Shown here: piece after piece, positions 1 to 10,263 of the stretch
Layout of the letters: each line of letters opens with the position of its first letter
Position numbering within the stretch: position 1 is the first letter of the stretch
Origin: Anaerolineales bacterium
GTDB taxonomy: Bacteria; Chloroflexota; Anaerolineae; Anaerolineales; UBA11579
Direction: 5' to 3'
Assembly: GCA_019637755.1 (NCBI GenBank)
Contig: JAHBVC010000001.1
Span: 186,001 to 250,000, forward strand
Length of the DNA: 64,000 nt
Made by a program: the position numbers and the translations under genes
The notes under the pieces: generated by a model
Seen by the model: only the letters and a program-made list of their open reading frames with translations
Databases searched by the model: none
Told to the model about the DNA's origin: nothing

Positions 1-2
1 TC

Positions 3-914
3 ATCGAGAACGAGACCCACGGCAACAAGGCCTACTCCAACCTCAACGAAGGCTATGGCAAGGTGCTGCGCTATGGCGCCTTCAGCGAGGAAGTGATTGC
101 CAAGCTGCGCTGGATGAACGAAAGCATGGGGCCGTTGCTGGCCAAAGCCATTGAGGCCAGCGGCGGCATTGATATCCGCGCCCTGCTGTCCGAGAGCTTG
201 CACATGGGCGACGAGGGCCACAACCGCAACAAGGCTGGCTCCATCATCTATACCGCCAAGCTGGCACCGTGGATTGCCAAGGTGGTCGCTGACAACGAGG
301 TGGAGTCTGAGGTGCTCAAGGCGCTGGGTGACAATGCACTCAGCGTACTGAATCCCGTCATGGCGGCCTGCAAAGCCATGTCAGCCAGCGCACACGGCAT
401 CGAGGGCAGCACGATGGTGACCACGATGGCGCGCAACGGCACCGACTTCGGTATGCGTGTCAGCGGCCTGGGCGAGCAATGGTTCACCGCCCCCGCCGAG
501 GTGCCGGATGGCCTGTACTTCCCCAGCTTCACCAGCAAGGATGCCAATCCAGACATCGGCGACAGCACCATCACGGAGACAGCGGGCATCGGCGCCTTCG
601 CCATGGCGGCAGCGCCAGCCATCGTCACCTTCGTGAGCGGTACGCCGCAGGATGCGCTCAACGCCACGCTGGAGATGTACGAGATCACCATCGCCGAGCA
701 CAGCCACTTCACCATTCCGCAACTGGAGTTCCGCGGCACGCCGACCGGTATCGACATCCGCAAGGTGGTTGAGCTGGGTATCACGCCGCGCGTCAACACC
801 GGCATCGCCCACCGCGAAGCGGGCGTGGGCCAGGTGGGCGCTGGTTTGGTACGCCCGCCGATGAAGATTTTTGAAGATGCGTTGGTGGCGTACGCGGAGC
901 GCTACAAACTTTAA
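3..914 (+). CDS. DUF1116 family protein, 5'-truncated (AllG/YlbE-like)
   Basis: The reading frame is open from the window edge, so the N-terminus lies upstream and only the last 303 or so residues are seen. The visible part has the DUF1116 pattern, including H-M-G-D-E-G-H-N-R-N about 70 residues in and a conserved N-G-T-D-F-G stretch. In E. coli the DUF1116 protein YlbE (AllG) works with FdrA and a DUF2877 protein as oxamate carbamoyltransferase in anaerobic allantoin use. A DUF2877 gene lies 4.5 kb downstream in the same operon, which supports a similar carbamoyl-transfer role. An FdrA-like gene would be expected upstream, outside the window. The substrate is inferred, not shown. Confidence 0.85.
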   Translation: MENETHGNKAYSNLNEGYGKVLRYGAFSEEVIAKLRWMNESMGPLLAKAIEASGGIDIRALLSESLHMGDEGHNRNKAGSIIYTAKLAPWIAKVVADNEVESEVLKALGDNALSVLNPVMAACKAMSASAHGIEGSTMVTTMARNGTDFGMRVSGLGEQWFTAPAEVPDGLYFPSFTSKDANPDIGDSTITETAGIGAFAMAAAPAIVTFVSGTPQDALNATLEMYEITIAEHSHFTIPQLEFRGTPTGIDIRKVVELGITPRVNTGIAHREAGVGQVGAGLVRPPMKIFEDALVAYAERYKL

Positions 915-924
915 AGAGCCAGCA

Positions 925-964
925 AGTCATCTAGTCTGTTGGTCGACCAATTGACCAGATGACT
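925..964. repeat. Intergenic imperfect hairpin between DUF1116 and cyclase genes
   Basis: AGTCATCTAGTC (925-936) pairs with GACCAGATGACT (953-964) with one mismatch. The loop itself contains the palindrome TTGGTCGACCAA. There is no T-tract, so it is not a typical terminator. Its CTAGTC/GACTA words resemble the GACTAATC-type simple repeats at 27463-27602 and 60990-61045. Confidence 0.6.
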
Positions 965-1002
965 AAGCAACTATCAGACTGCTAAAAAACTAAGGAGAAC
1001 TT

Positions 1003-1791
1003 ATGAAAATCCACGACTTGTCCCAGCCCCTCAACCAAGACGCCTCGTTCTGGCCGTTCTACCCCCCGTTTGAAGTCAAGTACATCAAGCGCAAGGCCGA
1101 GCACGGCGTGAACGCGCAGTACATCATGACCAGCAATCATATGGGCACCCACTTGGATGCGCCGCGCCACTTTGTCACCAACGGCAAGACGATTGACCAG
1201 TTGCCGCTGGATTGGCTGTATGGCGAAGGCGTGATTGTGGATCTGAGCAGCCAGCTGGACGACCTGGATGTGTTCACGCCCGAGATGATCGAGAAGACCG
1301 CCGAGGTCAAGAACGGAGATATTCTCTTCATCCACACGGGCTGGCACAAGTATTCCTTCTTCAGCCCAGAGGGTGACGAAGAGCGTTACATCCAGCGCCA
1401 CCCCGGCCCGCACCACAGCATCTGTGAGTGGCTGCTGGACAAGAAAATTCACCTGTGGGGCGTGGACATGATTTCCACTGACCACCCCATGAACCTGCCC
1501 ATTGGCCGCTTCCTCGGCAAAGGTGGTTTGGAGCACTGGGCCAAGGTGCGCAAACTCGTGGAGAAGAAACTAGGCGGCTCTGAGAAGGTGGACGAAATGT
1601 TCCCTGCTGAGGCTTACCAGCTCACCCACAATGCGCTGTTCCCGCATGACTGCTTCCATGTGGAGAACCTGGGTGGCGAGATTGGCAACCCGGCGTTGCA
1701 CAACAAGCGCCTGATCCTGGGCGCCTTCCCGTGGAAGTTCCAGGGTGGCGAGGCTGCCTTCTGCCGCGCCGTGGCTTTCACCCAAGAGTAG
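1003..1791 (+). CDS. Cyclase family metal-dependent hydrolase (kynurenine formamidase-like)
   Basis: The 262-residue protein carries the family signature H-x-G-T-H-x-D-x-P-x-H at residues 46-56 (H46, H50, D52, H56), which binds divalent metal ions. The family includes kynurenine formamidases, isatin hydrolases and other hydrolases that open amide bonds. The start is fixed by an AAGGAG Shine-Dalgarno sequence at 992-997. The next gene begins 1 nt after the stop, so translation is probably coupled. In this operon a role in opening an oxidised N-heterocycle is plausible; tryptophan degradation is less likely because no other kyn genes are near. The substrate cannot be read from sequence. Confidence 0.85.
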   Translation: MKIHDLSQPLNQDASFWPFYPPFEVKYIKRKAEHGVNAQYIMTSNHMGTHLDAPRHFVTNGKTIDQLPLDWLYGEGVIVDLSSQLDDLDVFTPEMIEKTAEVKNGDILFIHTGWHKYSFFSPEGDEERYIQRHPGPHHSICEWLLDKKIHLWGVDMISTDHPMNLPIGRFLGKGGLEHWAKVRKLVEKKLGGSEKVDEMFPAEAYQLTHNALFPHDCFHVENLGGEIGNPALHNKRLILGAFPWKFQGGEAAFCRAVAFTQE

Positions 1792-1792
1792 T

Positions 1793-4150
1793 ATGACCAC
1801 GCGGTACTTCGGCCAACGCATAAAACGCAACGAAGACCCCCGCCTGCTCACCGGGCGGGCGCTCTTCGTTGATGATGTAGATTTGCCGGGCATGGCGCAC
1901 ATCGCTTTTGTGCGCAGCCCGTACGCGCATGCGCGCATCAAATCCATTGATGCAACCGCGGCACGCGCCCTGCCCGGCGTCATCGCCGTGTACACGGCCG
2001 AAGACTTGGGTAGCTTCTGGCGCACCGGCGTGCTCAACGTTGGCCTGCCACCCATCAAGAACGCCTACCTCAACGAACGCATGCACCCCATCCTGGCCAA
2101 GGACAAGGTGCGCCATGTGGGCGAAGTCATCGTATGCATCGTGGCTGAGACGCGCTACATTGCTGAAGACGCCGCCGGGCTGGTGCTGGTGGATTACGAA
2201 GCGCTGCCCGTGCACATTGACCCGCGCAAAGCGTTGGAAGCTGGCGCGGCGCTGATTCATGATGACCTTGAGAACAACATCGCCGCTCACGTAGTGCAGG
2301 AAAAAGGCAACTACGAGAAGGCCAAAGCCAAGGCTGACCATATCATCAAGCGTGAGTTCTTCTATGACCGCGGTACGGCGGCGGCGATGGAAAACCGCGG
2401 CATCGTAGCGGCGTGGGATGCCAAGGCCGGCAAGCTCACCATGTGGGATACCACCCAGGCGCCCGTCATCATCCGCAACGGCATCGCCGGCATGCTCGGC
2501 CTCTCAGAGCATCAGGTGCGCCTGATTGCGCCGTTCATCGGTGGCGGCTTTGGGCCCAAGATTTTGATGTTCTACCCGGAGGAGATGCTGCTGCCGTGGA
2601 TCAGCATGCAGTTGAATATTCCGGTGAAGTGGATTGAAGACCGCGCCGAGAATTTCTACTCCACCACGCAGGAGCGTGGGCAACACCACGAAGCGGAGCT
2701 GGCCATCATGAACGATGGCACCATCGTGGGTGTCAAAGACGTCTTCTGGCATGACAACGGCGCCTACGACCCGTATGGGTTGACTGTACCTATCAACACG
2801 CAGTGCACCCTGCTCAATATGTACAAGGTGCCGGATTATTACAGCGAGTTCACCGCGGTATTCACCAACAAGCCCATCGTCAGCCCTTACCGTGGCGCAG
2901 GCCGCCAACATGGCGTGTTTGTGATGGAACGTCTGCTGGACGCGGCGGCCAAAGAGCTGGGGCTGGACAAAGTAGCCATCCGGCGCAAGAACCTCATCCC
3001 GCCCGAAGATTTTCCTGTCAAGCACCAAATCATCTATCAGGATTTCAGCGAGCTGACCTACGACAGCGGCAACTACGAGCCGGTGTTGGATAAGGCGCTC
3101 AAGATGATTGAATACGATAAGTTTTATAGCGAGCTGAAGCCCGCCGCCGAGAAGGCTGGCAAGAAGCTCGGGCTGGGCATCGTGTGCTATGTGGAAGGCA
3201 CCGGCATTGGCCCGTATGAGGGGGCGCGCATCCAGGTGCAGGCCAACGGCCGCGTCAGTGTGGCCACCGGCATCGGCACGCAGGGCCAGGGGCACTACAC
3301 CAGCTACGCCCAGATTGTGGCCGAGCAGCTCGGCGTACCGGTCAACCAGATTGACCTGGTAACGGGCGATACCGACCAGTTCCACTGGGGCGTGGGCACC
3401 TTCGCCAGCCGTGGTGCGGTGGTGGCAGGCAATGCCATCCACGCCGCCGCCCTGCGCGTGCGCGAGAAGATTCTTGCCAAAGCAGTAGAAGAGTTCGAAG
3501 GTGAAGTCACGCCTGACAAGCTAGAGTTGGTAGACGGCAAGGTACAGATCCTAGGCGCACCGGAAACCGCCATCCCGCTGGGCGTGCTGGCGCAGAAGGC
3601 GAACCCGATGAGAGGCGCGGTCAAACCCGGCACCGAGCCCGGGCTCGAGGCTACCGACTACTTTGGCCCGGAGATGGGCACCACCGCCTACGGTGTGCAC
3701 GCCATGATTGTGGAAGTTGACCCGGACACAATGGTGATTGATATCCAGAAATACGCCGTAGTACATGACTGTGGCGAGGTTATCAACCCGCTCATCCTCG
3801 ACGGTCAAATTCATGGCGGTGTGGCACAAGGCCTGGGCAATGCCTTCTACGAGCAGCTTGTGTTCGATGACATGGGCCAGATACTCAACGCCTCGTTCAT
3901 GGATTACTTGCTGCCTGCTGCGCAGGATGTGCCACGCATGGACACTGACCACACCACCACCCCATCGCCGCTCAATCCCATGGGCGTGAAGGGCGCGGGC
4001 GAAGCTGGCGCCATTCCGGTAGGCCCGCTGGTCGCACAGGCGCTGGAAGATGCGCTGAACATGCCCGGCTTTGAGATCCGCGAGATCCCGCTCAGCCCGC
4101 TGCGCCTGTGGCAACTGGCGGATGAGCACAAGAACGCCACAACCCAGTAA
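1793..4150 (+). CDS. Xanthine dehydrogenase/aldehyde oxidase family molybdenum-binding large subunit
   Basis: The 785-residue protein starts with the family motif F-G-Q-R-I-K-R-x-E-D-P-R-L-L-T-G. It also contains G-G-G-F-G-P-K, S-P-Y-R-G-A-G-R, a long T-G-I-G-T-Q-G-Q-G-H stretch and G-V-K-G-A-G-E-A-G near residue 738, whose Glu is the likely catalytic base. The CO-dehydrogenase active-site loop (AYRCSFR) is absent, so this is a hydroxylase of the xanthine or aldehyde type, not CoxL. Such enzymes hydroxylate purine, pyrimidine, nicotinate or aldehyde carbons. The partner FAD and 2Fe-2S subunits, usually adjacent, are not in the window; they may lie upstream or elsewhere. An ATG 48 nt downstream of the longest in-frame start fits the family N-terminus. 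Confidence 0.92.
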   Translation: MTTRYFGQRIKRNEDPRLLTGRALFVDDVDLPGMAHIAFVRSPYAHARIKSIDATAARALPGVIAVYTAEDLGSFWRTGVLNVGLPPIKNAYLNERMHPILAKDKVRHVGEVIVCIVAETRYIAEDAAGLVLVDYEALPVHIDPRKALEAGAALIHDDLENNIAAHVVQEKGNYEKAKAKADHIIKREFFYDRGTAAAMENRGIVAAWDAKAGKLTMWDTTQAPVIIRNGIAGMLGLSEHQVRLIAPFIGGGFGPKILMFYPEEMLLPWISMQLNIPVKWIEDRAENFYSTTQERGQHHEAELAIMNDGTIVGVKDVFWHDNGAYDPYGLTVPINTQCTLLNMYKVPDYYSEFTAVFTNKPIVSPYRGAGRQHGVFVMERLLDAAAKELGLDKVAIRRKNLIPPEDFPVKHQIIYQDFSELTYDSGNYEPVLDKALKMIEYDKFYSELKPAAEKAGKKLGLGIVCYVEGTGIGPYEGARIQVQANGRVSVATGIGTQGQGHYTSYAQIVAEQLGVPVNQIDLVTGDTDQFHWGVGTFASRGAVVAGNAIHAAALRVREKILAKAVEEFEGEVTPDKLELVDGKVQILGAPETAIPLGVLAQKANPMRGAVKPGTEPGLEATDYFGPEMGTTAYGVHAMIVEVDPDTMVIDIQKYAVVHDCGEVINPLILDGQIHGGVAQGLGNAFYEQLVFDDMGQILNASFMDYLLPAAQDVPRMDTDHTTTPSPLNPMGVKGAGEAGAIPVGPLVAQALEDALNMPGFEIREIPLSPLRLWQLADEHKNATTQ

Positions 4151-4171
4151 CCCGCTTGGGTTACTGGGTTG
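4140..4171 (+). other. Perfect 14-bp hairpin spanning the molybdenum hydroxylase stop codon
   Basis: CAACCCAGTAACCC (4140-4153) and its exact complement (4158-4171) enclose a GCTT loop, and the TAA stop lies inside the first arm. No T-tract follows directly (TTTTT comes 11 nt later), and the operon continues after 51 nt. It may be a leaky terminator or an mRNA-stabilising hairpin that lowers expression of the downstream genes. Confidence 0.7.
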
Positions 4172-4201
4172 TGGTTGCTGGTTTTTCGCACCAGGAGGCG
4201 C

Positions 4202-5407
4202 ATGGCCACTTCGATCCTGATCTCCAACGCGCAGCTGCGCAACAAGCCCGCCGGTGAAACCGTATCCATCTTGATCCAAGACGGGCGCATAGCGGCCATT
4301 GATAAGGTCATCACGGGCAGCGCCGATACTCAGCTGGATGCTGGCGGCAACCTGGTTACCGAATCGTTTGTGAATGCCCATCTGCATCTCGACAAGGTAT
4401 ACACGCTGGACCGCATGGATGAACTGGCACTGCAGAGCTACCAGGGCGCCGGCATGGGCAAGGCGATGAACGCCATCGAGCTGGCCAGCCGCGTCAAAGC
4501 CGAGTACGACGAGAGTTGGATTCTTCCCAATGTCCGCAAAGCGCTGAGATTGGCCACCAAGAACGGCAACACGCACATCCGTGCCTTTGCGGATGTGGAC
4601 AGCAAAGCCAAGCTGATTGGCGTGCAGGCGCTGCTCAAAGCGCGCGACGAATTCAAGGGCATCGTAGACGTGCAAGTCGTTGCCTTCCCGCAGGATGGTG
4701 TGGCGCGCGAGCCAGGCACCGAGGAGCTCATTCGCGAAGCCATGAAACTGGGCGCAGACGTCGTGGGCGGTATCCCGTGGATTGAATTCACGGATGCAGA
4801 TGCGCAACAGCACGTGGATGCCATGTTCGCCATCGCCAAGGAGTTTGACAAACCTGTCTCCATGCTGGTGGATGATGCCGGCGATGCTGGCTTGCGCACG
4901 CTGGAGATGATGGCGCTGGCCGCCATCAAGCAGGGCTGGCAGGGCCGCGCCCTGGCCCACCACGCACGTGCCATGGCGTTGTACCCTGTGCCCTATTTGC
5001 AAAAAGTGATTGCCTTGCTCAAGCAGGCGCGCATGTATGTAGTCAGCGACCCGCAAACCGGCCCGCTGCACGCCCGGGTGCGTGAGCTGCTGGAAGAGAA
5101 TGCCTACGTGTGCATCGGGCAGGATGATATTTCCGATGCGTACTATCCCTACGGACACAACAACATGCTCGAGGTGGCCTTCCTGGCTTCGCACCTGCTG
5201 TGGATGACCTCACGCGCTGAGATGGAAACGCTGTACAGCCTGGTGACCACTGAGGCTGCCAAAGCCATCGGCCTGCAGGATTTTGAACTCAAGGTCGGCG
5301 CGCCTGCACATCTGGTAGTGCTGGACACTCCCACTGTGCGCGAGGCGCTGCGCTACCACCGCGCCCCAGTACATGTGATTAGCCACGGGGTGCTGCTTCA
5401 CGAATGA
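4202..5407 (+). CDS. Cytosine deaminase-like amidohydrolase with altered metal-site residues
   Basis: The 401-residue protein has the amidohydrolase H-L-H-L-D-K motif at residues 60-65, H-H-A-R-A-M around H254 and a G-Q-D-D-I-S-D motif near 306-312. These match the first His pair, fourth His and metal Asp of E. coli CodA. The segment equivalent to CodA H214-C-D-E217 reads L222-V-D-D225, so the His ligand is Leu and the catalytic Glu is Asp. The reaction may therefore differ from cytosine deamination, for example hydrolysis of another cyclic amide. AGGAGG at 4193-4198 decides the start. The stop overlaps the next start (ATGA). Confidence 0.82.
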   Translation: MATSILISNAQLRNKPAGETVSILIQDGRIAAIDKVITGSADTQLDAGGNLVTESFVNAHLHLDKVYTLDRMDELALQSYQGAGMGKAMNAIELASRVKAEYDESWILPNVRKALRLATKNGNTHIRAFADVDSKAKLIGVQALLKARDEFKGIVDVQVVAFPQDGVAREPGTEELIREAMKLGADVVGGIPWIEFTDADAQQHVDAMFAIAKEFDKPVSMLVDDAGDAGLRTLEMMALAAIKQGWQGRALAHHARAMALYPVPYLQKVIALLKQARMYVVSDPQTGPLHARVRELLEENAYVCIGQDDISDAYYPYGHNNMLEVAFLASHLLWMTSRAEMETLYSLVTTEAAKAIGLQDFELKVGAPAHLVVLDTPTVREALRYHRAPVHVISHGVLLHE

Positions 5408-6285
5408 ACGCTGACCGTAGACTGCGGGCGCGTTCGATTGCGCCCGCAGCCCAGCACTGGCTGCACAGCACGCAGGAGGCACGCGTGCTGTATGCCTTTG
5501 AGGCCGTGGTGAACTTGGTCAATCAAGACGCGCAGGTGCTCTCCCTGGTGGATGCGCGCATTGGCGATGGCCCATTTTCCATCGTGCTCGAAGACTTTCC
5601 ACAAGGGACTCAGGCCGAATCGCGCCTGCTGGTGTTTGAAAACGGCTTGTGGCTGGACGATTGGCTGATTGATGCTGACTCGGCCCCACAATGGCACCCT
5701 GTGCCTGCGTGGGCGGCGCTACACACGATGCCAGACACCGTGGCGCATGCAGCGGGCGAGCTCAGCCTGTTGTTGCAGCAGTATGCGCCTGAAGATAGCC
5801 TGGCTCGCATCGTATTATTGGATGCAGGCACCTCTACTTTGCCTGTGCGCATTCAACAGCTTGCCGAGCAGAACATTCCCCAGTTGCTTGAAGGTATCCG
5901 CAGCCAAGATGCCAACAGGATACAGGCTGCGGCACGCAAGCTGGCCGGCGTTGGCCCCGGGCTGACCCCCGCCGGTGATGACCTGCTGCTGGGCTCCATG
6001 TACGGGCTGTGGGCCACTCAGCCGGCCTCGGCGGCCAGCGAACTGGCCGAGGGCATGGCAGACGTGGCGATTGAACGCACGCATGCCCTGTCAGCGGCCT
6101 GGCTGGCTGCGGGAGCACGTGGCGAAGCGGCCCAGCCTTGGCACCAGCTGATAGCCGCCATCGCCAGCAGCGATGGCGCAGCCCTGCAAGCTGCTGCGCT
6201 GCGCATCCTGCCCACCGGGCACACCTCCGGCGCTGATGCGCTGGCAGGCTTCATGGCTGTGCTGCAGCAGGGTGGCACAGCATGA
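5404..6285 (+). CDS. DUF2877 family protein (AllH/YlbF-like)
   Basis: The 293-residue protein carries the DUF2877 hallmark G-V-G-P-G-L-T-P-A-G-D-D-L-L-L-G at about residues 181-196. In E. coli the DUF2877 protein AllH forms the oxamate carbamoyltransferase with FdrA/AllF and the DUF1116 protein AllG. Both ends overlap neighbouring genes by 4 nt (ATGA), so it is translationally coupled to the amidohydrolase and the NmrA-like gene. Its presence in one operon with DUF1116 is the strongest evidence for carbamoyl-transfer chemistry here. Confidence 0.87.
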   Translation: MNADRRLRARSIAPAAQHWLHSTQEARVLYAFEAVVNLVNQDAQVLSLVDARIGDGPFSIVLEDFPQGTQAESRLLVFENGLWLDDWLIDADSAPQWHPVPAWAALHTMPDTVAHAAGELSLLLQQYAPEDSLARIVLLDAGTSTLPVRIQQLAEQNIPQLLEGIRSQDANRIQAAARKLAGVGPGLTPAGDDLLLGSMYGLWATQPASAASELAEGMADVAIERTHALSAAWLAAGARGEAAQPWHQLIAAIASSDGAALQAAALRILPTGHTSGADALAGFMAVLQQGGTA

Positions 6286-7136
6286 TCTTGGTGACCGGAG
6301 CCAACAGCAAGACCGGCCGTGCCGTCCTGGCCGCCTTGCAGACCAAAGGCGCAGCCACGCGGGCGCTCGTACGCCGCGAGGTGGACATGCCTGCAGACGA
6401 AGTAGTGCAGGCGGACATGGCCGACCCTGCCGCTATGCAAGCTGCCCTGGCTGGTGTAGACGCGCTGTACTTCATTGCACCCAACATGTACCCGGATGAA
6501 GTCGCGCTCACTGCCGCATGGATTGCGGCGGCCAAAGCCGCAGGCCTGCGCCGCTTTGTATATCACTCCGTGCTGTATCCGCAGATAGCCGCCATGCCGC
6601 ATCACTGGCAAAAGTTGCGCGTGGAAGAAGCGCTGATTCAATCAGGCTTGGATTTCACCATCCTGCAGCCCGCCAGTTACATGCAGAACGTACTGCCCTA
6701 TTTGCCCGCCATGCGCACGCAGGGCGAGTACCGCGTGCCTTACTCTGTGGATGCACAGTTCACTCCCGTTGATTTGAACGACGTAGCCAGCGTGGCTGCC
6801 CGCGTGCTGCTAGAAGCCGGCCACCACGGCGCCATCTACCCGCTTGCCGGGCCACAGGTACTGAGCTCAGCCGATATGGCCGCACAGACCGCGCTCCACA
6901 TCGGCCGCCCGGTAGCCGCGGCGCAGCAAGCGCTGGCTAACTGGCAGGCCAGCAACGCGCAGCTGCCCAGCTATGCGCGTGACACGCTGAGTGCAATGTT
7001 CGCCTATTACGATGCACACGGCTTCGCCGCCAGCAGCTTCACGCTGCAAAGCTTGCTAGGGCGTGCACCGAGTAGCTTTACGGAATTTCTTCAGCGCGAG
7101 CTGGTTAAGAATCCACAGATGAACACAGATTATTGA
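6282..7136 (+). CDS. NmrA-like/atypical SDR NAD(P)-binding protein
   Basis: The 284-residue protein begins with a Rossmann motif, V-T-G-A-N-S-K-T-G-R at residues 4-13, and has the length and layout of NmrA/QOR2-type atypical short-chain reductases, which bind NAD(P)H and act as reductases or redox sensors. The H-S-V-L-Y segment replaces the classical YxxxK. It overlaps the DUF2877 stop by 4 nt and ends the operon. The last nine or so residues are encoded by a dispersed intergenic repeat (see 7105-7132), so the C-terminus has been rewritten by that element. Its role in the pathway is unknown. Confidence 0.8.
   Translation: MILVTGANSKTGRAVLAALQTKGAATRALVRREVDMPADEVVQADMADPAAMQAALAGVDALYFIAPNMYPDEVALTAAWIAAAKAAGLRRFVYHSVLYPQIAAMPHHWQKLRVEEALIQSGLDFTILQPASYMQNVLPYLPAMRTQGEYRVPYSVDAQFTPVDLNDVASVAARVLLEAGHHGAIYPLAGPQVLSSADMAAQTALHIGRPVAAAQQALANWQASNAQLPSYARDTLSAMFAYYDAHGFAASSFTLQSLLGRAPSSFTEFLQRELVKNPQMNTDY
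7105..7135. repeat. Family B repeat copy inside the NmrA-like gene end
   Basis: The text CACAGATGAACACAGAT at 7114-7130 matches the CCACAGATGAACACAGATAAA family seen at six other intergenic sites in this window. Here it supplies the last codons and stop of the upstream gene. Confidence 0.65.
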
Positions 7137-7180
7137 GCCGCTGATACAAGCGATGAACGCGGATAGCCCTGGCACCCCCC

Positions 7181-7289
7181 GTCATTCCGACCGAATGCAA
7201 CCAGGGAGGAATCATTTAGGGCAAAACAAAGGTTTTTTAGAATGGCCTAAAGGATTCCTCCTCGGGCTTTGCCCTCGTCGGAATGAAGG
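7181..7289. repeat. Family A intergenic inverted repeat, copy 1
   Basis: GTCATTCCGA and GAGGAATC-TTTAGGGC on the left arm are mirrored by CTAAAGGATTCCTC and TCGGAATGA on the right arm. The same layout occurs at 61663-61773, 62588-62733 and 62745-62862. It carries no ORF and can fold into a long hairpin. Confidence 0.8.
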
Positions 7290-7298
7290 TTTGTAGTT

Positions 7299-7333
7299 AT
7301 CAGCGTTCATCTGCGTTTATCCGCGGTTAAAAC
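7299..7333. repeat. Family B repeat (inverted orientation)
   Basis: GTTCATCTGCGTTTATC followed by CGCGGTTAAAA is the reverse complement of the TTAACCACAGATGAACACAGATAAA element found elsewhere in the window. Confidence 0.75.
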
Positions 7334-7366
7334 AGCAGTTAGTTTTCATCTATGGAAAATACCTGC

Positions 7367-7403
7367 AAAAAAAAAGAGCAGCGCGATGCGCTGCTCTTTT
7401 TTT
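7367..7403. terminator. Bidirectional rho-independent terminator
   Basis: GAGCAGCGC (7376-7384) and GCGCTGCTC (7388-7396) form a 9-bp stem with a GAT loop, flanked by A9 and T7 tracts. It separates the + strand operon from the convergent permease. Confidence 0.92.
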
Positions 7404-7420
7404 CTTGCTAGTCACTCAGC

Positions 7421-8878
7421 TTAGCGGCGAGCCGTTTTCTTCGCCGCCGTCTTCTTGGCAGCCGTCTTCTTACCAGCCGCTTTCTTGACTGCGGTAGCCT
7501 TGCTAGCCGCGACCTTGCTCTCCCCCTCAGGAGCGAAGATGAGGAACACTGCATTCAACAGGATGCCGAGCACCGCCGCAGTGGCGATGGCGGGCAGGCC
7601 GCTGGGGAAGATTCCCTGCAGGAACGGAATGGGCAGGAAACCACCCGCATAGCCGATGTTGCCGCCGATACCCACCACCATGATGGTGGCGCCTACGGCC
7701 AGGTTGCGCGGGTCAAACATGCTGACCTTGTGCTCCTGCATCAGGGCGATGCCTTGCATACCAATCACACCGAACAGGTAGATGGCCAGGCCACCACTCA
7801 CCGCCAGGGGCACCGCGCTCACCAGCGCAGCCAGCTTGCCGACGAAGGCCAGCAGGATCGACAGCACACCCGCGGCGATCAAGGCCGGGCCGGAGTAGTT
7901 GCGCGTAATCGCCATCAGCGAGTTGTTCTCGCCATAGTTGGTACCCGCGGTAGCGCCAAACAAACCGTTGATGGCATCGCCCACACCGTCCAACACCAGG
8001 TTGAAGCCAATGTTCTTGTCCAACTCGTAGGGCTTGGCCTTGCGCTCCGCCGCGAAGCGGTCCACATATAGGCTGATCTGATACAGGTGAGCCGTGGATT
8101 CAGGAATGGTAGCGATCGCCATGATAGCAATGCTAAACACCGCTGTAGCCACGAACGCGCCACTGAAAATGGGAGCGGTCAGGTGCGGCATATCAAACAG
8201 CGGAGCTGCCGCCACGCCACCGAAGTTCACTGAGCCGGGCGCAATCAAGCCAGAGATCAGCATACCGGCAACTGCACCGAGCAACACGGGCAGCATGCCC
8301 AGGAAGCCCCGGTTCTGCAGATAGACCGAGAACAGGATGGTAAGCACCAGTGTCGCGATGGAGACGCCCCAGTTAGCAGAAGCCATATCCAGCGCAGCGA
8401 AGGCGAGACCGAAACCGATGATGGCGGCCACAGAGCCCGTCACCACCGGAGGCAACACCTTATCCAGCGCACTCTTGCCGAGGGCGCGGATGATGAAACC
8501 GATGACGATGTTGAGCAAACCGGTAACAATGATGCCGGCCTGCATCGTGCCGATCACTGCATCGGGCGCAGCAACGCCGAACTCCGGCGCCGCGCCGGTC
8601 ATCGCGCTCACCACAGCCACGTAGGCGGCGATGTAGCTGAAGCTGGAGCCATAGAACAGCGGAATGAACTTGCCGATGCCCATCTTCGACAGGATCAGCG
8701 CCACGATGGTGGAAACGCCGGAAGCGAACAAGACGGTGTTGACGTGGAAGCCACACAAAGCAGCCACCAAAACGGTGGCCGGAAACATGGTGAGGACGTG
8801 CTGGAAACCTAAAAGAATAAGTTGCCCCACAGGTGGGGTTTCATTGGGCAGGTAGCCCATACGTTGATTAGCAGCCAT
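7421..8878 (-). CDS. NCS2 family purine/pyrimidine permease with Lys/Ala-rich C-terminal tail
   Basis: The 485-residue hydrophobic protein matches the UraA/xanthine-uracil permease family: N-terminal P-P-V-G-Q-L-I-L-L-G-F-Q-H, a S-T-A-H-L-Y-Q-I-S motif in the middle (PES-T-A-H) and G-T-N-Y-G-E-N-N-S, typical of the substrate region. It would import uracil, xanthine or urate by proton symport. The last 30 or so residues are a KKAAGKKTAAKK-type basic tail, like bacterial histone H1-like tails and very unusual for this transporter. The convergent catabolic operon suggests the cargo feeds that pathway. A GAGGAG Shine-Dalgarno precedes the start. Confidence 0.93.
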   Translation of the reverse strand: MAANQRMGYLPNETPPVGQLILLGFQHVLTMFPATVLVAALCGFHVNTVLFASGVSTIVALILSKMGIGKFIPLFYGSSFSYIAAYVAVVSAMTGAAPEFGVAAPDAVIGTMQAGIIVTGLLNIVIGFIIRALGKSALDKVLPPVVTGSVAAIIGFGLAFAALDMASANWGVSIATLVLTILFSVYLQNRGFLGMLPVLLGAVAGMLISGLIAPGSVNFGGVAAAPLFDMPHLTAPIFSGAFVATAVFSIAIMAIATIPESTAHLYQISLYVDRFAAERKAKPYELDKNIGFNLVLDGVGDAINGLFGATAGTNYGENNSLMAITRNYSGPALIAAGVLSILLAFVGKLAALVSAVPLAVSGGLAIYLFGVIGMQGIALMQEHKVSMFDPRNLAVGATIMVVGIGGNIGYAGGFLPIPFLQGIFPSGLPAIATAAVLGILLNAVFLIFAPEGESKVAASKATAVKKAAGKKTAAKKTAAKKTARR

Positions 8879-8927
8879 ATACTCTCCTCATCGACTAAAA
8901 AATAAAAGCGGGATTGCGGGTAGGAAA

Positions 8928-8987
8928 GACAGTATGCAAAACGCCCCCAGGCACCTCCTTTTCGATAAAGAAGTCCGACATACTGCA
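8928..8987 (-). promoter_or_regulatory. Candidate structured leader of the NCS2 permease mRNA
   Basis: On the minus strand CAGTATG (8979-8985) pairs with CATACTG (8930-8936). Between them CTTCTTT and AAAGGAG can form an inner stem, leaving a G-rich bulge. The element lies about 50 nt upstream of the permease start. It does not match the classical guanine/adenine riboswitch. It could be a small purine-sensing element or a chance fold. Confidence 0.3.
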
Positions 8988-9045
8988 GATTTACAACCCA
9001 CAGATTCGCCAAAAGCTACGCGCCAAAATCATAGAATATTTGACC

Positions 9046-9051
9046 TATAAT
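9046..9051 (+). promoter_or_regulatory. -10 box (TATAAT) giving a leaderless CoA-transferase mRNA
   Basis: TATAAT ends 6 nt before the ATG at 9058, so the predicted transcription start falls on or next to the start codon. Confidence 0.7.
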
Positions 9052-9057
9052 GGGGCC

Positions 9058-10263
9058 ATGACCTCACCTACACCCGGCCTGCTACAAGGCATCCGCATCC
9101 TCGATCTCACCCGTGTGCTGGCTGGCCCCTACTGCACCATGCTGCTCGGTGACATGGGGGCGGATGTCATCAAAGTAGAGGCGCCCGATAAAGGCGACGA
9201 TACCCGCCAATGGGGCCCGCCCTTCACCGCCAGCGGCATGTCGGCCTATTTCATCTCCGCCAATCGCAACAAGCGCAGCCTGACCCTGAACCTGAAGCAT
9301 GCCGAAGGCCTGGCCATCCTGCGCCAGCTCATCGCCACCTGCGACGTGCTCGTGGAGAATTTCAAGCCCGGCACCCTGGAACGCCTGGGGCTCAGCTACG
9401 CCGCCCTGCAGGCCCTACGCCCCGACATCATCTACTGCACGATCAGCGGCTACGGCTACACCGGGCCGGATAGCACCCAGCCCGGCTACGACTTCATGGC
9501 CCAGGCCCGCGGCGGCCTGATGAGCATCACCGGCCCGGCCGATGGCGAGCCGGTGCGCGTGGGCTTGGCCATCGCCGATCTGCTCTCTGGCATTTATGCG
9601 TGCAATGCGATTACCGCCGCGCTTTTCGCACGCGAACGCCAAAAAACCGGGCAGCGCATCGATATTGCGCTGTTCGATGCCCAAGTGGGCACGCTTTCCT
9701 ACGTAGCCAGCAACTATCTCATCTCCGGCCAGCCGCCCAAACGCTACGGCAACGGCCATCCCAACATCGTGCCCTACCAATCGTTCAAAGCCAGCGATGG
9801 CTACTTTGCCTTTGCCAGCGGCAATGACGGCCAGTGGCAAAAATTCTGCGCTGCCGCCCGCCGCCCAGAATTGGCCACAGACCCGCGCTTTGCCAGCAAC
9901 CCCCAGCGCGTTGAGCACCGCCAGGCGCTGATTGCCCTCTTGGAAGAGCTGTTCGCTACCCGCCCCGTGGCCGCGTGGCTGGCGCTGTGCGCCGAAGCGG
10001 GCATCCCCGCTGGGCCAATCAACACGATCGACCAGGTCTTTCAGGATCCACAGGTGCTCGCCCGCGAGATGGTCTGGCACACTGCGCTTACCAGCGGCGA
10101 GCCTATCGATCTGCTGGCCTCACCGCTGAAAGTGCCCACCAGCCCGATGCAGCTGCGCTATCCTCCGCCCGCGCTCGGCGAACACACCACCACCATCCTG
10201 CACGATGAGCTTGGCCTGGCGGAAGAAGCCATCACTGCGCTTAAAGACAGCGGTGCCATCTAA
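9058..10263 (+). CDS. CaiB/BaiF family class III CoA-transferase
   Basis: The 401-residue protein has the family start I-R-I-L-D-L-T-R-V-L-A-G-P-Y, then G-A-D-V-I-K-V-E, and Y-D-F-M-A-Q-A-R-G-G-L-M-S-I-T-G at about residues 142-157, whose Asp corresponds to the catalytic Asp of formyl-CoA transferase. Enzymes of this family move CoA between carboxylic acids such as formate, oxalate, succinate, carnitine or aromatic acids. A longer in-frame start at 8914 exists, but the TATAAT box at 9046 and family N-terminus favour 9058. No neighbouring gene reveals the acid; an oxalate link to region 1 is possible but unproven. Confidence 0.9.
   Translation: MTSPTPGLLQGIRILDLTRVLAGPYCTMLLGDMGADVIKVEAPDKGDDTRQWGPPFTASGMSAYFISANRNKRSLTLNLKHAEGLAILRQLIATCDVLVENFKPGTLERLGLSYAALQALRPDIIYCTISGYGYTGPDSTQPGYDFMAQARGGLMSITGPADGEPVRVGLAIADLLSGIYACNAITAALFARERQKTGQRIDIALFDAQVGTLSYVASNYLISGQPPKRYGNGHPNIVPYQSFKASDGYFAFASGNDGQWQKFCAAARRPELATDPRFASNPQRVEHRQALIALLEELFATRPVAAWLALCAEAGIPAGPINTIDQVFQDPQVLAREMVWHTALTSGEPIDLLASPLKVPTSPMQLRYPPPALGEHTTTILHDELGLAEEAITALKDSGAI

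Follow-up and report, generated by a model that had tools for sequence, protein, structure and literature searches.

A carbamoyl-transfer operon with a molybdenum hydroxylase in Anaerolineales and its possible role in a phosphorolytic breakdown of pyrimidines

Which ring compound is broken down by an operon that joins a carbamoyl-transferring enzyme to a molybdenum hydroxylase? The question is raised by the start of a 64,000-nucleotide stretch of an Anaerolineales genome (GenBank assembly GCA_019637755.1, contig JAHBVC010000001.1, positions 186,001 to 250,000; G000:C1:186001-250000), hereafter the window, for which an earlier note made from the sequence alone had proposed a carbamoyl-transfer operon built around a lone hydroxylase. 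Gene content and conservation support a carbamoyl-transfer operon well. We favour, with moderate confidence, its operation as a phosphorolytic variant of oxidative pyrimidine catabolism, leading from uracil to malonate with harvest of carbamoyl phosphate. The presence of the genes, their families, conservation and co-occurrence, and several diagnostic residues are direct observations.

The operon and its transcarbamylase genes

The operon extends ~4.7 kb upstream of the window, into a stretch designated L002 (G000:C1:176001-195500; window coordinate = L002 coordinate - 10000). The upstream genes CoxM, CoxS, an amidase and AllF are on the same strand with tight spacing, and CoxM, CoxS, CoxL, the amidase, AllF, AllG and AllH all lie in a single co-directional run. 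The six genes and the convergent NCS2 permease described by the earlier note were present, with matching spacings (88, 1, 51, -4 and -4 nt). Curated Pfam cut-offs were passed by every gene, far beyond chance. The genes on which the argument depends are as follows:

L002 5257-6132, + strand: CoxM, flavin adenine dinucleotide (FAD) subunit of the hydroxylase
L002 6137-6625, + strand: CoxS, 2Fe-2S subunit
L002 6625-7905, + strand: malonamidase-like amidase (amidase-signature enzyme)
L002 7907-9577, + strand: AllF/FdrA (FdrA model 529 bits, cut-off 433)
Window 1-914, + strand: AllG (DUF1116), transcarbamylase subunit (PF06545, 314 bits; ATG at L002:9670, 331 bases before the window)
Window 1003-1791, + strand: cyclase family PF04199 (132 bits), metal-dependent ring-opening hydrolase, predicted barbiturate hydrolase
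Window 1793-4150, + strand: CoxL-type molybdenum-binding large subunit, xanthine-oxidase family (MoCoBD_1/2 domains), predicted pyrimidine hydroxylase
Window 5404-6285, + strand: AllH (DUF2877), transcarbamylase subunit (PF11392, 80.8 bits, cut-off 25)
Window 7421-8878, - strand: NCS2 nucleobase permease, UraA/RutG-like, convergent
Window 8914-10263, + strand: CaiB/BaiF-type coenzyme A (CoA)-transferase, dicarboxylate kind

Homologues of AllF, AllG and AllH are encoded together, which bears out the AllFGH-type carbamoyltransferase module proposed earlier. The FdrA homologue looked for upstream lies directly 5' of AllG and exceeds its model cut-off, and a carbamate kinase, likewise looked for, is encoded elsewhere in the genome (386.9 bits against an arcC equivalog cut-off of 358; G000:C2, ~456-458 kb, loci L035 and L156), beside a gene for a guanine/8-oxoguanine-deaminase-like amidohydrolase. 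This neighbour hints at a further purine or ureide route. In two relatives (L132, L141) carbamate kinase adjoins AllFG.

AllFGH of E. coli interconverts oxalurate plus phosphate and oxamate plus carbamoyl phosphate (PMC11326118). All three subunits of this system, and its kinase AllK (the four formerly fdrA-ylbE-ylbF-ybcF), have counterparts here, the last as the genomic carbamate kinase. Identity to the E. coli proteins was 40% for AllF and 48% for AllG (YlbE), while AllH was only locally similar (34% to YlbF over 114 amino acids). The chemistry common to both systems is predicted to be phosphorolysis of an N-acylurea to carbamoyl phosphate and a monoamide. They differ in their neighbours, which here are the molybdenum hydroxylase, the cyclase and the amidase instead of allantoin genes, and in the predicted substrate, ureidomalonate. 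No allantoin-pathway genes (allB, allC, allD, allE) were among the annotated neighbours in L002 or at the start of the window, in agreement with the earlier statement that this is not the classical allantoin pathway.

In AllG trees the window protein fell in a well-supported clade of hydroxylase-linked proteins, separate from the E. coli proteins YahG and YlbE and from a second Chloroflexota clade, whose members go with another hydroxylase and a type-B cyclase. Long branches, YlbE among them, leave the deeper order unsure, and the Rhodococcus ruber AllG, a very long and compositionally odd branch in both trees, was disregarded.

The hydroxylase and the conserved block

The FAD and 2Fe-2S subunits that had been sought upstream were both found (CoxM and CoxS), together with XdhC and CoxG maturation genes, and the hydroxylase, far from lone, is a complete three-subunit enzyme. 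The active-site loop of CoxL reads SPYRGAGR in the window and [TS]PYRGAGR in 80 of 92 sequences, the 12 others giving no match to the pattern; the catalytic glutamate of GVKGAGE is conserved. The best model for CoxL was that of carbon monoxide dehydrogenase (CODH) group-5, at 902.6 bits and below its cut-off of 950, a score that would suit a CODH-like or aldehyde-oxidising hydroxylase lying by chance beside an unrelated carbamoyl-transfer operon. We consider this highly improbable. CoxL has a YRGAGR loop instead of the CSFR loop of CODH, on which ground an aerobic CODH was rejected. In many lineages the hydroxylase subunits also flank and interleave with AllFG, in rearranged orders.

A scan with the cyclase, restricted to one genome per species, gave 80 loci, and conservation was counted over the 44 of them that had 7 kb or more of sequence on either side. 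Most of the 80 came from Chloroflexota; the outliers bore the labels Hyphomicrobiales, Pseudolabrys, Thermomicrobiaceae and Bacillota. CoxM, CoxS and CoxL were found together at 40/44 well-flanked loci, as were AllF and AllG (40/44). In a sample of 249 genomes of the class, AllG and the cyclase were each found in 98 (both in 88, AllG only in 10, cyclase only in 10, neither in 141). The block CoxM-CoxS-(amidase)-AllF-AllG-cyclase-CoxL is repeated across Anaerolineae and Caldilineae; the order AllF-AllG-cyclase-CoxM-CoxS-CoxL was seen in 18 loci, while many others had CoxM-CoxS-amidase-AllF-AllG-cyclase-CoxL, sometimes with accessory genes added. Such rearrangement with kept membership points to function rather than recent shared ancestry alone. 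The expectation that all six genes would be conserved together held for AllG, the cyclase and CoxL, whereas the CodA-like and NmrA genes proved to be accessory. A 627-amino-acid frame in L141 was judged spurious.

A route from uracil to malonate

The Rhodococcus-type oxidative pyrimidine pathway comprises uracil/thymine dehydrogenase, barbiturase and ureidomalonase, and has been poorly assigned to genes. The route proposed here is the same, from uracil via barbiturate and ureidomalonate to malonate. The UraA-like permease would import uracil or a closely related compound, for example thymine, which the CoxMSL molybdenum hydroxylase would oxidise at C6 to barbiturate. The metal-dependent cyclase-family hydrolase would then open barbiturate and give ureidomalonate, which like oxalurate is an N-acylurea. 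The AllF-AllG-AllH transcarbamylase, acting in the catabolic direction, would convert ureidomalonate and phosphate to carbamoyl phosphate and malonamate; oxalurate is an N-carbamoyl amide of a dicarboxylic acid and ureidomalonate its one-carbon-longer homologue. The malonamidase-like amidase would release malonate and ammonia from malonamate, carbamate kinase would yield ATP, CO2 and ammonia from carbamoyl phosphate, and malonate would be activated to malonyl-CoA. Two steps depart from the Rhodococcus-type pathway: the proposed ring opener is a PF04199 cyclase and not an AtzD-fold barbiturase, and the last step is proposed to be phosphorolysis, giving carbamoyl phosphate, where hydrolysis there gives urea. 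All the reactions are inferred from the genes, and so, most of all, is the nature of the ring compound. Import, hydroxylation and ring opening, as in the earlier note, are supported as a reading by the permease, CoxMSL and the cyclase, with activities predicted.

The permease was closer to UraA/RutG than to the xanthine permease model, its best model among those listed being the uracil permease PRK10720; its best PDB match was UraA, and the equivalents of the uracil-site residues Glu241, His245, Gly289 and Glu290 are kept. The cyclase retains the metal motif HMGTHLDAPRH, which matches the HxGTHxDxPxH of PF04199 proteins of the isatin hydrolase type, and its structural model (modest; weak at residues 11-59) matched the folds of isatin hydrolase and kynurenine formamidase. 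Motif and fold are thus common to these enzymes, but identity is low, and the predicted substrate is barbiturate, not isatin or formylkynurenine. An AtzD-type barbiturase was absent from the genome and eight relatives, in a search in which the positive control worked. A tandem two-domain cyclase of ~560 amino acids replaces the single-domain form in some AllFG-hydroxylase operons (L036, L037, L041, L044, L059, L066). A plasmid search with the cyclase gave no match at >=60% identity. On the Halorussus caseinilyticus plasmid NZ_CP119810.1 (L164) a haloarchaeal cyclase (41%) lies near hydroxylase subunits, XdhC, CoxG, CaiB and an NCS2-type (SLC23) transporter; AllFG was not among its annotated neighbours.

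The amidase gave malonamidase E2 as its best PDB match (1ock and others, over 404 residues). It is a distant homologue, and its activity as a malonamidase is predicted. The Ser-cisSer-Lys residues are kept, and operon-linked amidases carry GS[VI]IRP (GSVIRP, with GSxxRP arginine spacing), whereas two amidase paralogues in the genome read GSVRQP and GSIRQP, and the amidases of L125 and L135 likewise have the common GSxRxP spacing. The arginine of GSVIRP presumably binds the malonate carboxylate in the malonamidase E2 structure. The earlier note had the ring opened by two hydrolases within the window; the decisive amide hydrolase, this malonamidase-like enzyme, lay upstream of it. The Pseudolabrys locus L135 has an amidase and no recognisable pathway genes, and was rejected.

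A gene of the malonyl-CoA-synthetase type (MatB-like) was present at eight loci, among them L125, and the two that were checked (L119 and L125) were over the cut-off. The CaiB/BaiF protein scored best, though in each case under the cut-off, with the models for succinate-glutarate, mesaconate and oxalate CoA-transferases, and in L036, L037 and L041 the gene immediately 5' of AllF is a homologue; a tentative, possible role is the activation of malonate by CoA transfer. Pyrimidine genes were also found in related loci. In those of the Caldilineaceae type the block is adjoined by genes for a dihydropyrimidinase (602 bits, cut-off 393) and a nitrilase-family amidase and by an ABC-permease-like gene. 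At locus L125, from Hyphomicrobiales, the same cyclase (79%) occurs with CoxMSL, an amidase, NCS1/NCS2 permeases, a malonyl-CoA synthetase at 757 bits (cut-off 558) and a true cytosine deaminase at 784 bits (cut-off 438), and AllFG is absent; judged by these genes, it looks like a hydrolytic version of the same route. Neither urease nor dihydropyrimidinase was found in the window's own genome.

The same malonate and pyrimidine genes bear on the possibility that the operon performs oxalurate chemistry, in which a hydantoin- or imidazole-type ring would be converted to parabanate and opened by the cyclase to oxalurate, with AllFGH acting as an oxamic transcarbamylase and the amidase as an oxamate hydrolase. 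AllFGH function was assigned only in 2024, and is proven for oxalurate alone; AllG and AllF of the operon resemble the two E. coli paralogue sets to much the same degree, and the CaiB protein encoded next to it also gives scores with oxalate CoA-transferase models. The locus has neither allantoin nor urate genes, related loci encode malonyl-CoA synthetase, dihydropyrimidinase and cytosine deaminase, and the amidase carries the malonamidase E2 motif; on these grounds we regard oxalurate chemistry as unlikely.

A further alternative keeps the carbamoyl harvest and changes the ring, for example to a product of thymine or 5-methylcytosine, to a dihydropyrimidine or to some unidentified ring compound from plants or soil. 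Loci L042, L046, L056, L061, L062 and L074 contain a second type of operon, with AllG (mostly with AllF), a type-B cyclase, a clearly different molybdenum hydroxylase (~30% identity) and, in some, an NCS2 permease, and this type presumably serves another ring compound. To our knowledge the substrates of xanthine-oxidase-family enzymes cannot be read from sequence. For operons of the window type, the malonate and pyrimidine genes taken together favour uracil, and a different heterocycle is in our view doubtful; a pyrimidine substrate degraded to malonate is, on balance, probable.

Several observations weigh against the uracil route. The permease, at 202 bits, is below the curated uracil-permease (NCBIfam) cut-off of 477. 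We know of no PF04199 protein with a barbiturase role, and only AtzD-type barbiturases were found in the open-access literature searched. Other acylurea-forming rings (parabanate, hydantoins) may be the substrate. Many Caldilineaceae-type operons have no amidase, and another enzyme must therefore act there. Malonyl-CoA synthetase is linked in a minority of loci only, and none over cut-off was found in the window's own genome. Carbamate kinase lies outside the operon, and AllH is poorly conserved, being undetected in many loci. The co-occurrence statistic for AllG and the cyclase ignores shared ancestry.

Related modules and accessory genes

The uncharacterised E. coli cluster yahEFG-yahI-yahJ (L157 6926-13508) also brings together DUF2877, FdrA-like, DUF1116, carbamate-kinase-like and CodA-like genes. 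YahG is 50% identical to the window AllG, which is slightly closer to it than to YlbE, and the carbamate kinase of the genome is 51% identical to YahI. The annotated stretch of the yah cluster has no molybdenum hydroxylase, cyclase or amidase, and YahJ keeps the His and Glu that are lost in the CodA-like protein of the window. On the Citrobacter freundii plasmid NZ_CP154588.1 (126181-134972; L172) an AtzD-family amidohydrolase, NCS2, DUF2877, FdrA, DUF1116, carbamate kinase and LysR genes lie in a row. This enterobacterial plasmid cluster shares with the operon studied here a ring opener, AllFGH and a permease, but its ring opener is of the AtzD family and the molybdenum hydroxylase is absent. 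Host-genus counts of plasmid hits for AllG and AtzD largely agree (Citrobacter, Enterobacter, Leclercia, Raoultella), and the cluster possibly converts cyanuric acid to biuret with harvest of carbamoyl phosphate. In comammox bacteria allFGHK is reported to adjoin biuret and triuret genes (2025 paper, PMC12625717).

Viewed alongside the all and yah clusters of E. coli, these arrangements suggest that a number of ureides are handled by AllFGH modules, with a dedicated ring opener in each case. The wider proposal, which we hold at even odds, is that AllFGH-type enzymes are general ureide phosphorylases paired with varied ring openers to gain ATP from nitrogen heterocycles; in Chloroflexota they would form part of a uracil pathway that works by phosphorolysis, contains a new barbiturase of the cyclase family and a pyrimidine molybdenum hydroxylase with assigned genes, and is present in a large share of Anaerolineae. 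The uracil route, if right, would be a form of pyrimidine breakdown not described so far, in which the ring product is cut by phosphate instead of water, and would offer candidate genes for the pyrimidine hydroxylase, a second barbiturase class and a new transcarbamylase substrate. It would also give the mostly uncultured Chloroflexota a route to ATP and nitrogen from the nucleobases of dead biomass, and provide a testable guess for the unexplained yahEFG-I-J cluster. The open-access literature searched contained no report of this gene combination, and nothing relevant on a cyclase-type barbiturase, on uracil together with ureidomalonate or on pyrimidine oxidation in Chloroflexota; a subscription paper may already describe part of it.

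The remaining features of the locus are as follows:

L002 2382-2879, + strand: CoxG homology (tblastn)
L002 2895-3893, + strand: XdhC, a maturation gene like CoxG
Window 4136-4175, + strand: inverted repeat of 18 bp with a short T tract behind it, which overlaps the stop codon of CoxL and resembles a terminator or attenuator
Window 4202-5407, + strand: CodA/AtzC-fold amidohydrolase with altered active site, accessory
Window 6282-7136, + strand: NmrA-like NAD(P)-binding protein (PF05368), accessory

The AlphaFold model of the CodA-like protein matched the AtzC and CodA folds. Its active site carries His214 to Leu, Glu217 to Asp and Trp319 to Tyr substitutions that are invariant in its clade; Leu and Asp at the first two sites were found in the window protein and in 12/12 close relatives, while the CodA of L125 keeps both residues. 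The clade is marked by the motif SMLVDDAGDAG. A plain cytosine deaminase was rejected, as the metal ligand His214 and the catalytic Glu217 are lost. The gene occurs only in close relatives and L140. Only one of the two ring-type hydrolases proposed earlier, the cyclase, belongs to the conserved core; the CodA-like protein is restricted to near relatives, and catalytic residues are lost from it.

The NmrA gene was found in 12/44 well-flanked loci, and redox sensing or an extra step are candidate roles for its product. Because of the strong hairpin between CoxL and the CodA-like gene, the CodA-like, AllH and NmrA genes may be partly uncoupled or under separate control; terminator-like hits as a whole were no more numerous than expected by chance (14 observed against 12.0 +/- 4.5 expected). 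A thiolase gene on the - strand sits between XdhC and CoxM, and the NmrA and NCS2 genes are parted by a bidirectional terminator-like hairpin, read by eye from the sequence.

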